Source: a virus. From it: a DNA stretch of 25,457 nt. Below the pieces are notes generated by a model that saw nothing but the letters and a program-made list of their open reading frames with translations, did not search any database and was not told where the DNA came from. Position numbers and translations under genes: made by a program. The stretch is taken from the IMG/VR virus record IMGVR_UViG_3300044470_000046, positions 1 to 25,457 of that record; one strand, written 5' to 3'. Below, in pieces: positions 12,665 to 20,430 of this stretch (position 1 is its first letter; each line of letters starts with the position of its first letter).

Positions 12665-13282
12665 GTGATAACCCTGGCGATGCTGGTCCGGGATCCGCAG
12701 ATAGACCGGCTGGCGGCCCTGTTGGAGTACGTCAAGCCCGTCGTGGGCCAGGTTGTCATCGTTGTGGATGACCGCACCTCGCAGCGCGACCGCGACTTCA
12801 TGGCGTCATGGGGCGCGGAACTCGTGCCGTTCACATGGTGCGACGACTTTTCAGCCGCGCGCAATGCGGCCTTGACGCACGTCAAGGGCGACTGGACGCT
12901 CATGCTCGACCCTGACGAACTACCGACCCCTTCGATGATGGCGTTCCTGGCACAAGTGGACGCCTCCGAGTGGGGCGACGTGCCGTGGTACGGCACCGTT
13001 TACTATGCGCCGCGCGGTTATTTGTTCTGGCGCGCCAACTACTTCGCCGGCGTCCGTGGGGAGTTCGGCGAGGACCAATGGCACTGCCGCCTGTTCCGCT
13101 CGGGTTTGGGCGCCTGGTATCGCCCGGTTCACGAACTCGTACTGCTCGATGGACGGCCCGAGAACCAGACACGCAACACACCTCTGCTCCCGAAGGCACC
13201 GCGCTCGGCGTATCTCATCCACTCCAAGCCCGAAGATCGCATCGCCGCCGACGACGCGCTGTACGGGAGACTGGCGTCATGA
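12665..13282 (+). CDS. GT2-like glycosyltransferase (GT-A fold)
   Basis: The 205-residue protein shows VVIVVDDRTSQRD (nucleotide-binding Asp35/Asp36), DDFSAARNAAL (60-70) and GDWTLMLDPDEL (75-86), the DxD-like metal/nucleotide site of family 2 glycosyltransferases. The C-terminal part (GEDQWHCRLFRSG, then AYLIHSKPEDRI) fits the acceptor side. It starts at GTG 12665 behind CGGAGGT and ends in ATGA overlap with the cupin gene. It is short but complete for a minimal GT-A domain. It should transfer a sugar from an activated donor; acceptor and donor are unknown. Confidence 0.8.
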   Translation: MITLAMLVRDPQIDRLAALLEYVKPVVGQVVIVVDDRTSQRDRDFMASWGAELVPFTWCDDFSAARNAALTHVKGDWTLMLDPDELPTPSMMAFLAQVDASEWGDVPWYGTVYYAPRGYLFWRANYFAGVRGEFGEDQWHCRLFRSGLGAWYRPVHELVLLDGRPENQTRNTPLLPKAPRSAYLIHSKPEDRIAADDALYGRLAS

Positions 13283-13728
13283 TCCAACTGCGCACGATCG
13301 ACGATCCATCGGGCAGGCTCACGGCCATCGAGGGCGACGCCATCCCGTTCCCTGTTCGGAGAGTGTTCTACATCACAGACGTTCCCGCTGGGGCTTCGCG
13401 CGGCGGGCATGCGCAGCGCACGATGCAAGAGGTAATCATCGCTATCTCTGGTTCGTTCGACGTGAGCACGTACGATGAACATGGCCCGCACCGCTGGCAG
13501 CTCAACCGTCCCACGGTTGGGTTGCATGTTCCGGCGAACGTATGGCGCAGCCTGTCCAACTTCAGCTCGAACTCCGTTGCTCTAGTTCTGGCGTCCACGC
13601 AATATGACGAGGCCGACTACATCCGCGACTTCGAGCTGTTCAAGGCCGGGCTGGAGGTACTGGAGGAGCCGTACTTCGAACGCCGCGCAAAGACGCACTC
13701 ACTGGAAGAACTCCAGGGCGTCCGATGA
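13279..13728 (+). CDS. FdtA/WxcM-like cupin sugar 3,4-ketoisomerase
   Basis: The 149-residue protein closely follows the WxcM-like/FdtA/QdtA family: RRVFYITDVPAGASRGGHA, then MQEVIIAISGSFDV, VPANVWRSLSNFSSNSVALVLAS and YDEADYIRDFELF. Family members interconvert dTDP-4-keto-6-deoxyhexose and the 3-keto isomer before amination. Tyr31, Arg41 and His44 are in place, but the second His of the usual RGxHAH motif is Gln46 here, so activity may be altered. The true start is ATG 13279 in an ATGA overlap; the longer upstream frame is shadow. No 4,6-dehydratase or aminotransferase is seen in the window, so the host or another part of the phage would have to supply them. Confidence 0.85.
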   Translation: MIQLRTIDDPSGRLTAIEGDAIPFPVRRVFYITDVPAGASRGGHAQRTMQEVIIAISGSFDVSTYDEHGPHRWQLNRPTVGLHVPANVWRSLSNFSSNSVALVLASTQYDEADYIRDFELFKAGLEVLEEPYFERRAKTHSLEELQGVR

Positions 13729-13756
13729 TCGCCGGCGCAACTGTGGAGGACCCGCT

Positions 13757-14320
13757 TTGATACTCACCGGACGTTACGTCAGTCTTCGGCCGCTCGTACC
13801 AGGCGACGCCGAGATTACGCATAAGTGGCGCGAGTCCCCGCGGGCGTTCCTGCTGAACCGCGGCGCGCGGAACGTCGAAGAGCAGCGCGCATGGATCGCC
13901 TCGCGGCCCGACACTGAGTACAACTTTATCCAGCAGCTCGTGACGGGCGAACCCGTGGGGATGCTGTCTCTCGTGGAAATCTCGCACACTCACAAGACGT
14001 TCGAGATGGGCCATTTCCTGATCGGCGAGCCCGAACTCGTGAAGCCCTACGGAAATGGAGTGATTGCCGCCGAAGCGTCGCGCTTGCTATACGACTACGC
14101 CTTCGACGTGCTGAAGCTCCACAGCCAGCATGGCCCCATCGCCTCCGAAAACACCGGCATGCTCGCATGGGCTAGGTACATCGGTGTCAAGGAAGAAGGA
14201 CGGCTCAAGGACTTCTACTTCCTGAACGGACACTACATGGACGCGGTGTGGATGGGCTGCACGCAAGACGACTATCGCAACATCATGCGCCCGCGACTCA
14301 GCGGGCTGATTGGAGACTAA
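13757..14320 (+). CDS. GNAT N-acyltransferase, PseH-like
   Basis: The 187-residue protein has the RimJ/RimL or PseH-type GNAT layout. The N-terminus is MILTGRYVSLRPLVPGDAE; GMLSLVEI and FEMGHFLIGE (83-92) form the central sheet; KPYGNGVIAAEASRLLYDYAF stands at the acyl-CoA pyrophosphate loop; IASENTGMLAWARYIGVKEEGRLKD forms the family's end. The start is a TTG at 13757 preceded by GTGGAGGA (13743-13750) with 6-nt spacing; no ATG or GTG fits better. In nucleotide-sugar pathways such enzymes N-acylate an amino sugar. The ACP gene two bases downstream suggests that the acyl donor could be acyl-ACP. Confidence 0.8.
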   Translation: MILTGRYVSLRPLVPGDAEITHKWRESPRAFLLNRGARNVEEQRAWIASRPDTEYNFIQQLVTGEPVGMLSLVEISHTHKTFEMGHFLIGEPELVKPYGNGVIAAEASRLLYDYAFDVLKLHSQHGPIASENTGMLAWARYIGVKEEGRLKDFYFLNGHYMDAVWMGCTQDDYRNIMRPRLSGLIGD

Positions 14321-14321
14321 C

Positions 14322-14582
14322 GTGGAAGCACTTGTCATCGCCGCAGTCAAGCGGGCGTTCCAGCTTCAGGGCGACGGCAGCGTGGACGTTACGCCGTCCA
14401 CCGTTGTCTATGGTCCAGACTCCGATCTGGACTCGCTAGGGTTTATCTCCGCCATCCTGGAGGTGGAGGACGGCCTGCGCGCCAAGGGCGTCACGCTGAA
14501 CCTGAACCCGGACGGCACGTTCGATCCCGCAGAGCGTTACGCCACCGTGGCGACGTTCGCCGCCTATCTGGAGAACGCATGA
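14322..14582 (+). CDS. acyl carrier protein
   Basis: The 86-residue protein has the ACP signature PDSDLDSLGFISAILEVED, with Ser38 as the 4'-phosphopantetheine site. Two helices precede it and an acidic helix follows (EDGLRAKG, then YATVATFAAYLENA). GTG 14322 is chosen because GGAG at 14312-14315 is 6 nt upstream; a TTG at 14310 overlaps that site. It begins one base after the GNAT stop and overlaps the SDR by ATGA. Activation would need a host phosphopantetheinyl transferase. It presumably carries the chain made by the ketosynthase and SDR. Confidence 0.85.
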   Translation: MEALVIAAVKRAFQLQGDGSVDVTPSTVVYGPDSDLDSLGFISAILEVEDGLRAKGVTLNLNPDGTFDPAERYATVATFAAYLENA

Positions 14583-15217
14583 AATACGAGGGGCTGAGCG
14601 TTGTCATCACCGGGGCCAGCCGTGGGCTTGGCTTGGAACTTGCGGATCACTTCGAGGGCGCCAACGTGTTTGATCTCAGCCGGACGAACGGTTGCGACGT
14701 GAGCGATCCCGCAGCGGTGCGCGCGACTCTGCCTCCGCACGTTGACATCCTTGTGAACAACGCCGCCGTCGGCTCCGCGTCCTATGCTGCTGCCACGCCT
14801 GACGGTATCGCGCGTGAGACGGTACTCACAAACTTGCTCGGGACGTTCAACTGCTCCGTCGAAGCGGCCAAGCGTATGCGCTCTACGGGTGGACGCATTA
14901 TCAACATCGGCTCGATTGCCGTGCCATTCGAGGACGCCGGAACCGCGCTCTACACCGCAACGAAAGCCGGTTGTGAGGCCATGACGGGCGTACTCGCCAA
15001 GGAGTTCGCACCGTGGGGCGTCACGGTAAACACGGTGGGCGTCTCGGCGCTGCCTACCGCGATGTGGGCCGCGCATTCCGAAGCGACTCAGAAAGCCATC
15101 CTGTCGCGGCTGCCGTTGGGCATGGCGACGTTCGAAGACGTGTTCGCCGTGGTGGACTTCTTCTGTTCCAGCCCATTCATCACGGGACAGACGATCTACC
15201 TCGGAGGTGCAAGGTGA
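14579..15217 (+). CDS. short-chain dehydrogenase/reductase, FabG-like
   Basis: The 212-residue SDR has the NAD(P) motif TGASRGLG (11-18), NNAA (60-63), a catalytic Ser112 in NIGSIA, and YTATK with Tyr125 and Lys129. The C-terminal SPFITGQTIYLGGAR is typical of FabG-like ketoreductases. Next to an ACP and a ketosynthase it most likely reduces a 3-ketoacyl-ACP to 3-hydroxyacyl-ACP; an alternative is reduction of a keto-sugar. It is slightly shorter than bacterial FabG (about 245 residues). It starts in an ATGA overlap with the ACP. Confidence 0.85.
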   Translation: MKYEGLSVVITGASRGLGLELADHFEGANVFDLSRTNGCDVSDPAAVRATLPPHVDILVNNAAVGSASYAAATPDGIARETVLTNLLGTFNCSVEAAKRMRSTGGRIINIGSIAVPFEDAGTALYTATKAGCEAMTGVLAKEFAPWGVTVNTVGVSALPTAMWAAHSEATQKAILSRLPLGMATFEDVFAVVDFFCSSPFITGQTIYLGGAR

Positions 15218-15480
15218 AGAGGCAGATGAACAAGCGGTACTGGCGTATGGAAGTCGAATGGGTGGATAGCCACGTCTCCGACGGTGGATGGCACCCCTGT
15301 AAATGGTATGTCCGAAACAAGAAGAACCGACGCCCGGTCATGGTGTCAGTGGGTTTCGTTCTCGCCGACGATAAGGCGGGGATCGTTCTAGCCAACAGCG
15401 TCGATCCCCGCTATAACGCGGCGTGCGGCGTCATCATGATCCCGGCTGGAGCCGTACTCACTCGCAGGAGACTTCGGTGA
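15214..15480 (+). CDS. small conserved-looking phage protein
   Basis: The 88-residue product starts at GTG 15214 (GTGA overlap, GGAGG at 15203-15207). The pattern VEWVDSHVSDGGWHP, then VMVSVGFVLADDKAGIVLANS and a CGVIMIPAGAV end resembles a family of small beta-rich phage proteins with VxWxDS...SVGFL...IPxxxV spacing, known to me only as hypothetical. An ATG at 15226 is the alternative start. It interrupts the biosynthetic genes without an obvious link to them. Confidence 0.6.
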   Translation: MKRQMNKRYWRMEVEWVDSHVSDGGWHPCKWYVRNKKNRRPVMVSVGFVLADDKAGIVLANSVDPRYNAACGVIMIPAGAVLTRRRLR

Positions 15481-15683
15481 ATACAGTGCACGTCCTCCCG
15501 GATTGGCAGAACCATTCCCCTAACCCGTTTTGCTGGTGTGGACCTAGCAAGGAGCCTGTCCCGCCTAACGGGGAGTTGTGGGTACACCGTGCCGCGAATG
15601 ATGACGAGCCTATCTACGATCCCGCCAAAGACCCCGCCGTAGCAGACCCGAACAGGCACTGGCTCGTATTGGAGGCGACATGA
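15477..15683 (+). CDS. small hypothetical protein with CWCGP motif
   Basis: The 68-residue protein starts at GTG in a GTGA overlap and ends in an ATGA overlap with the ketosynthase gene. It contains NPFCWCGPSKEPVP near residue 20 and an acidic, Pro-rich remainder ending HWLVLEAT. Small phage proteins with a V-x-P...CxCGP pattern are common and uncharacterised. It is unlikely to be part of the acyl-sugar pathway. Confidence 0.6.
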   Translation: MNTVHVLPDWQNHSPNPFCWCGPSKEPVPPNGELWVHRAANDDEPIYDPAKDPAVADPNRHWLVLEAT

Positions 15684-16618
15684 TCGGCATACTCGGAACC
15701 GGCCGCGCGATGGGATCGAAGCTTCTCTCGAACGAGGAACTCTGCCAGACGCTACCCGTTACACCGGAGTGGATCGTCGAAAAGACTGGTATCAAGCAAC
15801 GCTACATGGCGGTGGATGGCGAGACTGTCGCGTCCTTGGCCCTACAAGCCGCCAGGAAGGCCCTAGAAGCGGCGCAAGTCTCCCCGGAGCAGATAGGGCT
15901 CACTATCGTCGCAACGTTCAGCCACGACTACCTTTTCCCGGCCGCGAGCGCGAAGCTCCACCACGACCTAGGACTGAAGGGCGGGCAGTTCTTCGACCTC
16001 CAAGCCAACTGCTCTGGGTTCGTCGCGGCGCTCGGAGTGGCGACGGATCGGATGACAGTAGACCCCACGGTTCACTACGCGCTAGTGGTGGGTTCGGAAG
16101 TCGTGGCGGACTTCATTGACAAGACGGATGAGAACACGGCCCCGTTCTTCTCTGACGGCGCGGGCGCGGTTGTCTTGGGCCCCGCGGATGTTGGGTTCGT
16201 GGCGAACGCTTACTACGCCGACTCTTCGGAATATGAGGCGGTGCGCTGCAAGCGCGGGACGGCGTTCCCGCATATCGAGCAGTACGGCTTCGCCACAGGC
16301 AAGCAAGCACTCGCGCACCTGCCGCGTACGGTTTTACGTGCGCTCGATAAGGCGCATTGGGACGTGGCGGACGTGGATTGCTTCATATTCCACCAGGCCA
16401 ACCTGCGGCTCATTGAGTTCTTGTGCGGCATACTTCATGTGCAAATGAACAAGACGTATACCAACGTCGAAACGGTGGGCAACGCCGGCGCGGCTTCGGT
16501 GCCGATCGCGCTCGCGGACGCCGTAGAGGCCGGCGCTATCAAGTCGGGTTCGAAGGTGTGCTTCGCCGCCGTGGGCGCGGGCTTCGGGTTCGGCGCGTCC
16601 TGTTGGATCATGCCGTGA
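15680..16618 (+). CDS. 3-oxoacyl-ACP synthase III (FabH-like)
   Basis: At 312 residues this is full length for FabH (about 317). The catalytic triad is intact at nearly the E. coli positions: Cys111 in QANCSGFVAAL, His238 in IFHQANLRLIEF and Asn268 in VGNAGAASVPIAL. The N-terminal VTPEWIVEKTGIKQR and the C-terminal VGAGFGFGASCW also fit. KAS III enzymes condense an acyl-CoA starter with malonyl-ACP to give a 3-ketoacyl-ACP. With the ACP and SDR upstream it would make a short 3-hydroxyacyl group such as 3-hydroxybutyryl. A substrate other than acetyl-CoA cannot be excluded. It starts in an ATGA overlap and its TGA overlaps the next GTG. Confidence 0.92.
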   Translation: MIGILGTGRAMGSKLLSNEELCQTLPVTPEWIVEKTGIKQRYMAVDGETVASLALQAARKALEAAQVSPEQIGLTIVATFSHDYLFPAASAKLHHDLGLKGGQFFDLQANCSGFVAALGVATDRMTVDPTVHYALVVGSEVVADFIDKTDENTAPFFSDGAGAVVLGPADVGFVANAYYADSSEYEAVRCKRGTAFPHIEQYGFATGKQALAHLPRTVLRALDKAHWDVADVDCFIFHQANLRLIEFLCGILHVQMNKTYTNVETVGNAGAASVPIALADAVEAGAIKSGSKVCFAAVGAGFGFGASCWIMP

Positions 16619-17220
16619 TAACCATCATCACACCCACGTACAACCGGCCGGGCCTGTTGTTCAGCCGGTGCGTCCCGTCCGTCCTGGCCCAGACGTACAC
16701 GGATTGGGAGATGCTCATTGTCGGGGACGGATGCGCACCTGAGACTGTCGCCGCCATCGAGGCCGGCATCGCGGATCACCGCATCTCGTTTGTCAACCTA
16801 CCCCGTCAGGCGTACCCGGAGAACGATCCCGAAGCGGCTTGGCGGCAGACTGCCGTGAACGCATCTAATTGGGGGATGGATCATGCACGCGGCGAATGGA
16901 TCACCGGCCTGGCGGATGACGACGAACTTCCCCCCGACGCCCTATCCGTGCTCCTGGCGGCTACGGACGGCGTGGATGCAGTCTATGGACGGGCCGAGGT
17001 TGTGGGATGCGGGTTCATCGGAGCCTACCCGCCCCGAGAAGGACAGATCCAGTCTTTCATGTGCCGAGCCGGACTCCCGCAACGCCTGAAGGTATCGAAC
17101 TACCCATCCGACTGGGCGCTCGTGGCGCAGATGCTCGCGGACGGCGTGACGTTCGGGTTCGTGCCGGATATCGTCTATCGCTACTTCCCCAACCTACACG
17201 TTCCGAGAGTGGACGCATGA
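16615..17220 (+). CDS. GT2 family glycosyltransferase
   Basis: The 201-residue protein opens with IITPTYNRPGLL (4-15), continues with SVLAQTYTDWEMLIVGDGC (22-40) and has the metal-binding LADDDELPPDAL (Asp101-103). This is classic GT2 order. It lacks the C-terminal extensions of larger GT2 enzymes, so it is a minimal catalytic domain. It starts at GTG in GTGA overlap with the ketosynthase gene and ends in ATGA overlap with the next transferase; co-translation with the lipid-type genes supports joint work on one glycan. Confidence 0.85.
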   Translation: MITIITPTYNRPGLLFSRCVPSVLAQTYTDWEMLIVGDGCAPETVAAIEAGIADHRISFVNLPRQAYPENDPEAAWRQTAVNASNWGMDHARGEWITGLADDDELPPDALSVLLAATDGVDAVYGRAEVVGCGFIGAYPPREGQIQSFMCRAGLPQRLKVSNYPSDWALVAQMLADGVTFGFVPDIVYRYFPNLHVPRVDA

Positions 17221-17828
17221 TCGCCGCCGTCATCCCAACTCGGTTTCACCCGCCGCAGCTCGACCCGCTGATTGCGCTGCTGGAGGCCGACGGCGTAGAG
17301 GTGCATCTGCTGGAGTCCGCCGACTACGAACATCGGATCTACCGAATGTGGAATGAGGGCGTTCGGCTTGCGGGGAACGTGGACCATATCGCCATCTTGA
17401 ATGACGATATAACCATCCTCCCCGGAACGCTGCCGCTCATGGCGCACGCTCTGGATACCGACCTGTTAGTGGGCGTCGTATACCCGGACGTGAGCGTGGG
17501 CTTTGGCAGTCTGCCAATCGAGCCGCTCACCCTACAGGCCACCGAAGGATCGTGGGGCCGCGGCGGCATGGCGGGGTTCTGCTTCATGTTCCGCGCACCC
17601 GTCAACCCGCCGGTATTCGACGAGTCCTACGGATGGTGGTTCGGCGACGACGATTTTGAGGAGCGTGTCCGTGGCGCCGGGCGGCTCGTGTGCCGCATCC
17701 GGGGGTTGCCGATCATTCATCAGGTGGACGGCTCGGCCCGCAAGGTGTGGGACGAGAAGGGGCCTATCACGGCTGCCGATCAGCGACTTTGGGACGCACG
17801 TCACAGAGAAGAGAGGGCCGCCGGATGA
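17217..17828 (+). CDS. GT-A type glycosyltransferase-like protein
   Basis: The 203-residue protein starts MIAAVIPTRFHPPQL, has HIAILNDDITILPG (58-70) and a later YGWWFGDDDFEERVR (138-152). The IPT start, NDD motif and W-x-G-[DE]-D-D segment are typical of small GT-A enzymes found in phages and actinobacteria. It ends with HQVDGSARKVWDEKGP. Its stop at 17826-17828 lies inside an ATGA, as if a further coupled gene once followed; instead the minus-strand cassette begins here. Confidence 0.75.
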   Translation: MIAAVIPTRFHPPQLDPLIALLEADGVEVHLLESADYEHRIYRMWNEGVRLAGNVDHIAILNDDITILPGTLPLMAHALDTDLLVGVVYPDVSVGFGSLPIEPLTLQATEGSWGRGGMAGFCFMFRAPVNPPVFDESYGWWFGDDDFEERVRGAGRLVCRIRGLPIIHQVDGSARKVWDEKGPITAADQRLWDARHREERAAG

Positions 17829-17839
17829 CGACCCTCTCT
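17810..17839 (-). terminator. hairpin at the end of the minus-strand cassette
   Basis: AGAGAGGG (17810-17817) and CCCTCTCT (17832-17839) form an exact 8-bp stem with a 14-nt loop, two bases beyond array 1. Read leftward it follows the minus operon and could end its transcript. It also lies across the end of the plus-strand transferase gene, so it could act in both directions. Confidence 0.45.
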
Positions 17840-17840
17840 C

Positions 17841-17905
17841 TTGCCTTGCCTTGCCATGCCCCGCCCAGCCGAGCCGTGCCAAGCCTCGCCTTGCCATGCC
17901 CTGCC
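17841..17905 (-). repeat. pentanucleotide array 1: 13 perfect GGCNN units
   Basis: On the minus strand the 65 bp read as GGCNN thirteen times in perfect 5-bp phase. The variable pairs are AG, AT, AA, GA, TT, AC, TC, TG, GG, AT, AA, AA, AA. It starts 3 nt after the TAG of the winged-helix-like gene, so it would form the 3' untranslated region of the minus operon. The constant GGC and freely varying last two bases set it apart from a simple microsatellite. Confidence 0.9.
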
Positions 17906-17908
17906 GCG

Positions 17909-18370
17909 CTAGAGCAGACCCTCCTTTCGGAGGACTTCCTCTATCTGTCGGATGCGGTGCTCGTGGGCCACGATAGCCCAAAGCGCGAAGGTGGCCTTTT
18001 GCTCCGTGTCCCACTCCGCCAGTCCGGTCCCGGAGAGCTTCTCCAGGTCGGTCGCGGTGAGGACGCGGGTTGCGATAGCGAGCTGGCGGCGGCTCTTGCG
18101 CCGGTGAGCGACGGAGAGGCGAACATGCTCATTGGCCTCCACCACGCGGTAGCCGGTCCCAGGGACGGCCTCAAGCCAACGATGCTTGATAGAACCAAGA
18201 TCCTGCCGGGCACGGTACAGCGGCCCGCGGTTAGGCTCAAAGGGTCGGCCGAGCAACTCGGCAATCTGAGCGTAAGTGATAATCGCGCCAAAGTCGGCGT
18301 CGGCGAGCAGGTCTTCGTAGATCATGCGCCACTCGGGGCGGTCGCCCTTGGACGCGAACAGCGGGGCCAT
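17909..18370 (-). CDS. winged-helix-like protein of the minus-strand cassette
   Basis: The 153-residue basic protein has a winged-helix-like N-terminal half. The segment GAIITYAQIAELLGRPF (28-44) looks like the turn of the helix-turn-helix. RGPLYRARQDLG (48-59) would be the recognition helix, and HRWLEAVPGTGYRVVEANEH (63-82) a wing. A basic stretch, RRKSRRQLA (90-98), follows, then a helical C-terminus. I recall similar uncharacterised phage proteins beside the RAMP-like partner, but have no name for them. Its ATG follows the partner's TAG with no gap (TAGATG), so the two are translationally linked. It may bind DNA or the repeat RNA, or repress the operon's own promoter. Confidence 0.7.
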   Translation of the reverse strand: MAPLFASKGDRPEWRMIYEDLLADADFGAIITYAQIAELLGRPFEPNRGPLYRARQDLGSIKHRWLEAVPGTGYRVVEANEHVRLSVAHRRKSRRQLAIATRVLTATDLEKLSGTGLAEWDTEQKATFALWAIVAHEHRIRQIEEVLRKEGLL

Positions 18371-18940
18371 CTAGGATACCTTCGCAGAGAAGCGGCCGAA
18401 GCCGAGCTTGCGGGCATCGCCGATGCCGTAGAACCGGCCGGCGCGGTCGGCGATCTTGGCGAGGTCTTCGATCTTGAGTTCGAGCGTTTCGAGCTCGACC
18501 GTGACCGTGACCGACCACGGGGGCCGGAAGATTGGACGAGTTCGGGCCACGCGCACGCGGCCGATGACGACGGTGCGATGGTCGATATTCGCCTCGCGGT
18601 AGAGCTTCGAGGGCTCCTTCGGGCCGTCATAGACCAGAGCGGCCTTGTCGTCCAGGATCGTGACGGCGCGGTAGAGCAGGTCGCCTTGCTTCCACGCTGT
18701 CGCGGAGTCGCGCAGCGAGCGGATAACGTTGATTGTCGGGACGTAGACGCCGAACCCCTTTTCGTAGTAGAGCCCGCCCATCCATTCGAGTTGGGCAAGT
18801 TGCTCCTGCTCTTCGGGAGTCTTCTTGCGCTTCTGCGCAAGTGGGTCCAGCGCCCGCTTCATCGGGTCCAACGGATCGGCCAGCCGTCCGTTGTGCATGA
18901 GCAACGGGGATCGTCCCGTCAGTTCGATAGTGGCTTCCAT
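18371..18940 (-). CDS. RAMP-like protein (Cas7/Cas6-type fold suspected)
   Basis: The 189-residue protein starts MEATIELTGRSPLLMHNG (1-18), then ADPLDP, a charged helical insert KRKKTPEEQEQLAQLEWMGGLY, a VYDGP (103-107) and RTRPIFRPPWS (133-143). Near its end is YGIGDARKLGFGRFS (171-185). The first strand with SPLLMHNG and the terminal Gly-rich loop G-x-G-(x)5-6-G-x-G match the layout of RAMP-superfamily RNA-binding proteins. I recall similar proteins in phages as uncharacterised. No nuclease triad is evident. The ribosome site AAGGAG is formed by the edge of array 2, placed 5-6 nt before the ATG. Function is unknown; binding of the GGCNN repeat RNA is the obvious hypothesis. Confidence 0.75.
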   Translation of the reverse strand: MEATIELTGRSPLLMHNGRLADPLDPMKRALDPLAQKRKKTPEEQEQLAQLEWMGGLYYEKGFGVYVPTINVIRSLRDSATAWKQGDLLYRAVTILDDKAALVYDGPKEPSKLYREANIDHRTVVIGRVRVARTRPIFRPPWSVTVTVELETLELKIEDLAKIADRAGRFYGIGDARKLGFGRFSAKVS

Positions 18941-18948
18941 AGCGCTCC

Positions 18949-19013
18949 TTGCCTTGCCCTGCCCGGCCTTGCCCCGGCCCGTCTTGACCCGCCCGGCCTA
19001 GCCGTGTCCGCCC
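18949..19013 (-). repeat. pentanucleotide array 2: 13 units, partly degenerate, ending in the ribosome site
   Basis: Read on the minus strand, thirteen 5-bp units run into the RAMP-like start codon. Eight are perfect GGCNN (TA, CG, GG, AA, CG, AG, AA, AA). Five keep a G at position 1 and the 5-bp phase but vary inside (GGGCG, GACAC, GTCAA, GACGG, GCCGG). The last full units are GGCAA GGCAA, followed by GGAGC, which supplies the Shine-Dalgarno sequence. Confidence 0.85.
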
Positions 19014-19058
19014 TAACGAGCGGCCGGAGAGTCCGAAGGCTCTCTCGTCGGTCGTTAG
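19013..19058 (-). repeat. long hairpin between arrays 2 and 3
   Basis: CTAACGA (19013-19019) and TCGTTAG (19052-19058) are exact inverse copies. Inside, GAGAG-T-CC and GGCTCTC form a second stem around a GAA loop. The element spaces the two arrays and would present them as two single-stranded or stacked blocks on either side of a stem in the leader RNA. Confidence 0.6.
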
Positions 19059-19121
19059 ACCTTGCCTTGCCTTGCCCTGCCTGGCCGCGCCTTGCCCTGC
19101 CTGGCCGCGCCTTGCCAAGCC
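19057..19121 (-). repeat. pentanucleotide array 3: 12 perfect GGCNN units plus GGTCT
   Basis: On the minus strand, in transcription order, the variable pairs are TT, AA, GC, CA, AG, AA, GC, CA, AG, AA, AA, AA, then GGTCT. The four-unit block AA-GC-CA-AG occurs twice in tandem (20 bp each). As in array 1, the array ends with three GGCAA units. The total is again 13 units. It would be the first part of the transcript from the promoter at 19131-19160. Confidence 0.9.
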
Positions 19122-19130
19122 TTGAGCCCG

Positions 19131-19160
19131 TATCTAAACACGGTCTGTTCTCCGTGTCAA
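19131..19160 (-). promoter_or_regulatory. minus-strand promoter TTGACA-N18-TAGATA with internal operator-like repeat
   Basis: On the minus strand TTGACA lies at 19160-19155 and TAGATA at 19136-19131, with an 18-bp spacer. Transcription would start near 19124, at the edge of array 3. ACACGG (19138-19143) and CCGTGT (19152-19157) form an exact inverted repeat with an 8-nt centre, covering the spacer and the end of the -35. That is a typical place for a repressor site. The cassette can therefore be expressed apart from the late operon. Confidence 0.65.
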
Positions 19161-19176: not shown

Positions 19177-20430
19177 ATGAGTCGCATCTTGTTCTTTGGC
19201 GACATGGCGGGAACGGGCTTCGGCACGGTCACGGCGGATCTCGGCCGGGCTATGCTCAAGCTCGGCGAGGATGTGCGCTTCCTGTCGATCAACGAAACCG
19301 GCGACAAACTGCCCGAGCCACTTGCCAGCCGGACGTTCTCGATGGGCCACGCCGACGGTTGGATACACGTCCCACAGAACGAGGAGGACGCCCGCGAGAT
19401 GGTCGAGCGACTGACCGGACTCTTTACCGGGGCCAGTTTCCCCGATGGATGGAAACCCGAAGCCGCGATCCTGCTCGGCGACCCTGAGTCGGTCAAGCGT
19501 TCGTCTATCGTCGGTTTCGTCCCCAAGGGGTTTCCTGTCTTCCATTACGTGCCGATCGAAGGCGTCGGGTTGCCGCCGCGCTGGAAGGAAGCCATTTGGA
19601 GCCGTCTCGTTCCGGTTGCCATGTGCGAGTTCGGGGCAGACGAGATTGAGAAGGTCACGGGAGTCCGTCCGGCGGTGGTTTATCATGGGGTGGATACGCA
19701 CGTCTTTCATCCCATTAGCGCGGTCAATCCGATGGTGCTCAAGACAACCGCCGAGATTACGACGCTCCGCTCTAAGGACGACTGCAGGCGCTTCTTTGGG
19801 TTCGAGCCCGGACGCGTCTGGTTGCTGAGAACGGATCGGCATATGCCGCGCAAACGATACAACTCCATGCTGCGCTCACTGGTGCCGGTCCTGGAACGCA
19901 ACTCAAAGGTTGACCTGGTGATCCACTGTCGGACTGAGGACATGGGCGGCGACCTGCGGGACGCACTTTCGAAGTTCCCCGAGTGGGTGAGTCAGCGGGT
20001 CATTCTGACAGGCCTCCATGACGCCTTTGGCGGAGTGCCGCGCGAGGTTCTTGTAATCCTTTACAACGCGGCGGACCTGTACGTCTCCAACTGCGCCGAG
20101 GGCTTCGGGTTGTGTATCGCCGAGGCGCTGGCGTGTGGCATCCCCGCCGTGGGCGCTAATTTCTCAAGCGTGCCCGAAGTGATCGGTCCCGCAGGTGTGA
20201 CGGTCGAGCCGGTCGAGCTCTTTGAGAACGAATACGACTACTTCTGGGGCGTCGCGCAGGAGGAAGCCTTCGGCGCGGCCGTCGAAGAACTGCTCAACCG
20301 GCCGCTGCACATGGCGCATCTCGGCGCCAAGGGCACGGATCATGTCCGCCAGACGTTCCGCTGGGACACCGCGGCTCGCCAATTCAGCGATCTTGTGAAA
20401 GCCGCTACGCGGCAGGAGGCTGCAGCATGA
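19177..20430 (+). CDS. GT4-like glycosyltransferase (GT-B fold)
   Basis: The 417-residue protein begins SRILFFGDMAGTGFGTVTADLGRAM, a GT-B N-terminal loop. VVYHGVDTHVFHP (168-179) lies at the domain hinge, RTDRHMPRKRY (218-228) at the phosphate-binding strand and CAEGFGLCIAEALACGIPAVG (306-326) at the nucleotide-sugar site. Glu308 and Glu316 form the EX7E motif of family 4 and related retaining enzymes. The ATG has GAGGAA 7 nt upstream. It resumes the plus-strand chain after the cassette and overlaps the next virion gene by ATGA. It probably acts with the three upstream transferases. Confidence 0.88.
   Translation: MSRILFFGDMAGTGFGTVTADLGRAMLKLGEDVRFLSINETGDKLPEPLASRTFSMGHADGWIHVPQNEEDAREMVERLTGLFTGASFPDGWKPEAAILLGDPESVKRSSIVGFVPKGFPVFHYVPIEGVGLPPRWKEAIWSRLVPVAMCEFGADEIEKVTGVRPAVVYHGVDTHVFHPISAVNPMVLKTTAEITTLRSKDDCRRFFGFEPGRVWLLRTDRHMPRKRYNSMLRSLVPVLERNSKVDLVIHCRTEDMGGDLRDALSKFPEWVSQRVILTGLHDAFGGVPREVLVILYNAADLYVSNCAEGFGLCIAEALACGIPAVGANFSSVPEVIGPAGVTVEPVELFENEYDYFWGVAQEEAFGAAVEELLNRPLHMAHLGAKGTDHVRQTFRWDTAARQFSDLVKAATRQEAAA

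Follow-up and report, generated by a model that had tools for sequence, protein, structure and literature searches.

A compact, probably complete VIPR locus with GGY-repeat guide tracts in a tailed-phage genome fragment

Introduction

Phage-encoded VIPR (Viral Interference Programmable Repeat) systems, as described in the main text of a 2026 preprint (PMC13142463), combine a small RAMP protein, Vipr, with an accessory gene, vap, and with vrRNAs, the last defined as 9-16 YNNGG repeats with hypervariable NN positions and a structured 3' tail. In that account, target recognition on double-stranded DNA is by the NN bases, which leave one base unread between successive dinucleotides, and the complex acts as a transcriptional repressor. 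Such RNAs are used as guides in the published systems, and the solved protein closest to the one studied here, that of Escherichia phage SUSP1 (Felixounavirus; type II), binds GGY/NN RNAs. Phages are thought to silence rival phages with these systems, the natural targets are mostly satellites and prophages, and VIPR may resemble the ancestor of CRISPR effectors (PMC13142463).

Here we analysed a stretch of 25,457 bases (the window), which corresponds to the virus record IMGVR_UViG_3300044470_000046 and is a fragment of tailed-phage DNA. A sequence-only reading of this DNA had singled out an open reading frame at 18371-18940 as a stand-alone RAMP-like gene without cas genes. This gene and its surroundings were compared to the described VIPR systems.

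Results

The open reading frame (vipr) was found to start with an ATG at 18940 and to end with a stop codon at 18371-18373 on the minus strand, and to encode a protein of 189 aa; the ends assigned to it earlier were exact. The SPLLMHNG and GIGDARKLGFG motifs, which had been taken as signs of a RAMP layout with a Gly-rich loop, were located at residues 11-18 and 172-182, respectively. Both were conserved in an alignment of 42 sequences, the invariant columns of which included H16, R135, P136, F138, W142, G168, G172 and G182. Comparison of Vipr to Pfam, NCBIfam and PADLOC gave no match, and the family label therefore derives only from PHROGs, the PDB and PMC13142463. By search of PHROGs, Vipr was matched to phrog_4652 (E 9.7e-40), a family annotated as of unknown function. 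When the PDB was searched with the single sequence, one significant match was detected, 36pp_D "SUSP1 Vipr protein" (E 4.5e-22, residues 4-188), and the profile of the 42 sequences matched the 36pp SUSP1 Vipr at E 2.1e-56. The window protein and SUSP1 Vipr share about one third of their residues; for phage REP10, whose protein closely resembles that of SUSP1, the identity is 33%. Judged by its sequence, the vipr product is a homologue of the characterized Vipr proteins.

An AlphaFold2 model of Vipr was generated from the 42-sequence alignment (pLDDT 92.5, pTM 0.86) and compared to the PDB by Foldseek. By this approach, all 37 matches with E ≤ 0.001 were found to be entries that contain CRISPR RAMP proteins, mostly Csm3, Cas7-like and Cmr subunits (types III-A, III-B, III-D and VII) and some Cas6. 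The top matches were Csm and type VII RAMP subunits, with a best E value of 2.4e-5 and TM scores of up to 0.55. When Vipr was compared to a viral library, the third match was to a phage protein that carries a Cas-associated RAMP annotation. The PDB, Foldseek and viral-library matches to RAMPs revealed that the fold had been guessed correctly, and a confident match to a non-RAMP fold did not appear. As modelled, the vipr product is a RAMP protein with an RRM core and a Gly-rich loop (conserved G172 and G182). This fold is common to window Vipr and the class 1 CRISPR subunits Csm3 and Cas7, yet the locus differs from class 1 CRISPR-Cas in having no array and no cas genes and in combining a single small protein with predicted pentamer-repeat guides. 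The absence of CRISPR components noted earlier was upheld, in that no CRISPR-type repeat/spacer array was found in the window and PADLOC gave no cas match among the proteins scanned. The repeat families of the window were confined to a GC-rich 9/15-nt coding repeat, the GCCNN pentamer tracts described below and one weak 26-nt pair. The coding repeat (387-812) is a G+C-rich tandem repeat located in an Ala-rich open reading frame at the contig start.

Directly after the vipr stop codon begins a vap-like gene (17909-18370, minus strand) that encodes a protein of 153 aa. This protein matched phrog_5926 (E 8e-10) in PHROGs, and hhalign related its profile to genes located after vipr in the VIPR loci of Felixounavirus and Pseudomonas phages, at a probability of 96.7% and E 4.5e-10. 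The structure model (pLDDT 90.5) displayed a winged-helix-like N-terminal part and long C-terminal helices, with weak matches to wHTH DNA-binding domains. VIPR types are told apart by Vipr phylogeny, vrRNA layout and vap class; a Vap of the DNA-binding kind and the homology to SUSP1 point to type II as the nearest VIPR type.

The sequence around vipr, when read on the minus strand, was found to be made up of GGY-NN pentamers. Thirteen perfect GGY units form the vrRNA1 tract (19059-19121), with the NN dinucleotides TT AA GC CA AG AA GC CA AG AA AA AA from 19121 to 19059. The vrRNA3 tract (17843-17905), also of 13 perfect units, is placed right after the vap stop codon and reads AG AT AA GA TT AC TC TG GG AT AA AA from 17905 to 17843. 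When the locus was shuffled 2,000 times with dinucleotides preserved, the longest perfect GGY run was 4 units, compared to the 13 observed, and in 200 shuffles of the whole window a run never exceeded 5 units. Besides vrRNA1, vrRNA3 and a leader tract (see below), no GGY run of at least 5 units was present in the 25-kb window. The NN content was found to differ between the tracts of the window and among relatives.

Within vrRNA1, four units are duplicated in a perfect 20-nt tandem repeat (19069-19116), and thus the guide would read AA GC CA AG twice. This duplication was the strongest internal repeat among 137 tracts. Unit duplication as a route of guide diversification was considered and rejected, as no general excess was detected across the 137 tracts. 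Two tracts of one locus shared four consecutive NN units in 2 of 169 pairs (1776-1838 with 2886-2953 in locus L012, and 4071 with 4173 in L075) compared to a mean of 0.3 in shuffles, few cases that hint at recombination between guides.

Both perfect tracts are followed by a structured 3' tail. The vrRNA1 tail (19013-19058, minus strand) forms a nested hairpin in the centroid structure, paired as CTAACGA...GAGAG...CTCTC...TCGTTAG, with a folding energy modestly better than that of shuffles (z -1.3). The vrRNA3 tail (17806-17842, minus strand) forms a strong hairpin, AGAGAGGG...CCCTCTCT, of -26.7 kcal/mol (z -4.3), and none of 200 shuffles was equally stable. Search of Rfam yielded nothing credible in the VIPR locus. 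The pentamer tracts on both sides of vipr and the vap-like partner gene had been overlooked when the RAMP was called stand-alone; with guide-like RNA tracts of its own and a vap-like gene, vipr is not solitary.

The leader tract, a degenerate, vrRNA2-like tract, was found at 18946-19008 on the minus strand, ahead of vipr. Its units (GAC-AC GGC-TA GGC-CG GGC-GG GTC-AA GAC-GG GCC-GG GGC-AA GGC-CG GGC-AG GGC-AA GGC-AA GGA) include four to five that are off the GGY consensus. The tract has no separate tail, and its last units are the vipr Shine-Dalgarno sequence AAGGAG (18950-18945). The same arrangement was detected in L012 (1776-1853), in which a perfect 13/13 tract is followed by the AAGGAG of vipr and is likewise tail-less. 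Tracts with no evident tail of their own were also located 21-42 nt before vipr in L003, L029, L040 and L076. These tail-less tracts may be guides that are processed from the mRNA, or sites at which Vipr holds back its own translation.

Just before vrRNA1, a candidate promoter, TTGACA-17-TTAGAT, was identified (19132-19160, minus strand), for which an alternative spacer of 18 nt leads to TAGATA. The homologous site of L012 reads TTGACA-17-TAGAGT, and 11 nt separate its end from the tract. As the window site went uncalled in a strict sigma70 scan, this promoter is regarded as putative; a promoter before the tract is clear in L012 and plausible in the window. When promoters were searched for ahead of tracts, the mean was 4.6 of 12 compared to 3.4 of 12 at random positions, a mild excess.

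The locus is inserted on the minus strand of a tailed phage, among late genes and glycosyltransferase genes that lie on the plus strand. The terminase and other late genes of the record are on the plus strand, and vipr lies in an island of opposite orientation between plus-strand genes at 17007-17828 and 19177-20430 (a glycosyltransferase). Amid the phage late genes, a cassette at 12665-17828 and 19177-20430 was observed to encode glycosyltransferases, an FdtA-like sugar isomerase, a probable acetyltransferase, a carrier-protein-like open reading frame, a short-chain dehydrogenase and a 3-oxoacyl-ACP synthase III; this cassette may modify sugars of the virion or host surface. The window terminase is about 31% identical to Streptomyces-phage terminases, and a Streptomyces host was considered and set aside, as this identity is too weak for naming a host.

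By contig scan, 69 related loci were identified in viral contigs, 129 records were found among annotated phages, and genome contigs yielded distant vipr loci only. Tracts of at least 8 GGY units were counted by strand in 53 loci around vipr, the window included. By this approach, 107 tracts (in 42 of the 53 loci) were found in the sense of vipr versus 4 on the opposite strand. GGY tracts were present beside vipr in phages with a G+C content of 31 to 70%, and tract number, NN content and tails varied widely among relatives, with arrays of up to about seven tracts. The order of vipr, a 153-aa vap and a tract right after the vap stop codon is common to L002, L012, L013, L014, L015 and L018. The vap gene and post-vap tract are as in the window in the uncultured IMG/VR phage contigs L002 (vipr 89% identical to that of the window, vap 80%), L012 (vipr 55%), L013 (55%) and L014 (52%), whereas in none of them is the NN content or the tail sequence that of the window. 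L012 further resembles the window in its promoter and in its leader tract fused to AAGGAG, and is unlike it in having no separate upstream vrRNA.

Homologues of vipr and of the vap-like gene, accompanied by GGY tracts, were also found in the actinophages Gordonia Trine and MakoManhole and Mycobacterium LittleE and prophiBWHA-1. By contrast to the window, the tails of these VIPR-like loci include minihelices that resemble a tRNA acceptor and T-arm. Such tails were observed in L003, L004, L006, L007, L022, L024, L031, L038, L040, L045, L048 and L053 (actinophage or high-G+C) and in L074. They comprise an acceptor-like stem of about 6 bp, a short linker (often ATGGTYGYA) and a T-arm with a TTCGANN loop, and have no anticodon arm. 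When 11 of these tails were set side by side, the stems were found to pair via many different base pairs, a count that is partly circular because the tails had been selected for pairing. By use of ARAGORN, the minihelix tails were not scored as complete tRNAs, except for one in L004 with an unassigned anticodon. RNase P or RNase Z may process the minihelix tails. No mention of tRNA is made in the main text of PMC13142463.

Compared to SUSP1 as presented in the main text of PMC13142463, the window shares a homologous RAMP and a DNA-binding vap-like gene that follows it. In both, the genes are flanked on either side by same-strand GGY/NN tracts of about 13 units that carry structured 3' tails. 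By contrast, the window tails are simple hairpins unrelated in sequence to those of SUSP1, and the one upstream and three downstream vrRNAs of SUSP1 compare to one upstream vrRNA, one leader tract fused to the Shine-Dalgarno sequence and one downstream vrRNA in the window.

Targets of vrRNA1, vrRNA3 and the leader tract were searched for with queries of 20 specified bases in a 1-nt skip pattern. For vrRNA3, no exact 20-base match was found in viral or genome contigs, and no match with up to 3 mismatches was found in 36 related phage records. The sole match of these searches was of vrRNA1 to L010; this candidate was rejected as chance, as it falls within a low-complexity Lys/Ala repeat of a gene in an A+T-rich phage, fails at unit 11 and has its skip off the wobble position. 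When all vrRNA tracts were compared to all examined loci at skips of 0-3, weak matches were similarly frequent at every skip length, and the exact tract matches, seen at skip 3 only, were those of tracts to their own copies in duplicate records. Thus, no convincing natural target was found for this locus, an absence that says little while no host is assigned.

Discussion

Of the features of VIPR that are testable from sequence, all but a target were found together in the window: Vipr homology, a RAMP fold, vrRNA repeats, a structured tail and an adjacent vap. The locus is very probably a complete and compact VIPR system, with GGY-repeat guides for silencing competing phages by an NN code. Transcription of the whole set, from vrRNA1 through the leader tract, vipr and vap to vrRNA3, probably starts from a single promoter ahead of 19121. 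As in other systems (PMC13142463), Vipr molecules would bind the GGY-repeat RNAs along the tract, and the hairpin tail would mark the 3' end of the vrRNA. The NN dinucleotides would read double-stranded DNA in three-base steps with one base skipped, and AGNATNAANGANTTNACNTCNTGNGGNATNAANAA is the predicted reporter target sequence for this code. Binding would keep a gene of a competing phage or prophage from being transcribed, with likely help from the DNA-binding Vap. We infer that the locus is active and represses a gene of a rival phage.

The GGY tracts might instead be cis-acting sites, with Vipr coating its own mRNA leader, hiding the Shine-Dalgarno sequence and limiting its own synthesis, and with no DNA-targeting guides involved. 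The fusion of the leader tract to the vipr AAGGAG in the window and L012 and the tail-less tracts that four other loci carry 21-42 nt ahead of vipr favour this explanation, and the autoregulation proposed in the sequence-only reading fits it. It leaves unexplained, however, vrRNA1 and vrRNA3, which are perfect, tailed and placed apart from the start codon, and the arrays of up to about seven tracts in relatives, and the main text of PMC13142463 describes such RNAs as guides. Cis-acting leader control is possible as an addition to the guide explanation and highly improbable as its replacement. A less improbable, though still unlikely, alternative is a decaying and inactive VIPR remnant, to which the four to five off-consensus units of the leader tract, the internal duplication of vrRNA1 and the target that was not found could be ascribed; vipr and vap are nevertheless intact, two tracts are perfect, and the two genes retain 89% and 80% identity to those of L002.

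The 20-nt duplication, together with the G+C-rich repeat at 387-812, would also suit tracts that are mere G+C-rich slippage sequence beside a RAMP gene. Such an origin is scarcely credible for tracts with a strict GGY period of five, varied NN and a strand bias of 107:4, which lie beside vipr across phages of 31 to 70% G+C and are not approached by locus shuffles (never more than 4 units). Equally hard to credit is a lone RAMP that would counter CRISPR immunity by binding crRNA of the host. The resemblance of the fold to crRNA-binding Csm3 and Cas7 subunits agrees with this idea; the sequestering of host crRNA suggested in the sequence-only reading nevertheless found no support, as Vipr has cognate repeat RNAs of its own, the window holds no CRISPR-like repeat, and the closest solved relative binds GGY/NN RNAs according to the main text of PMC13142463.

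Within the guide explanation, autoregulation by Vipr through the leader is conceivable, given that in L012 as well as in the window the Shine-Dalgarno sequence forms the end of a GGY tract with no tail. We tentatively suggest, as a conjecture with the odds against it, that the leader tract is a built-in sensor, such that free Vipr would assemble on its own mRNA leader and halt translation until tailed vrRNAs suffice to draw the protein off. Since the vrRNAs would take Vipr away, guide supply would set effector supply. The main text of PMC13142463 describes no leader or sensor control of vipr.

The locus adds an example to the VIPR kind described in 2026, and the kind itself is not new. The window presents an intact member that is distant from SUSP1 Vipr; its guides can be read, and its leader tract is unusual. 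Its relatives (about 70 loci, including the actinophages with tRNA-like tails) provide material for studying the making and capping of guides and their balance with the protein.
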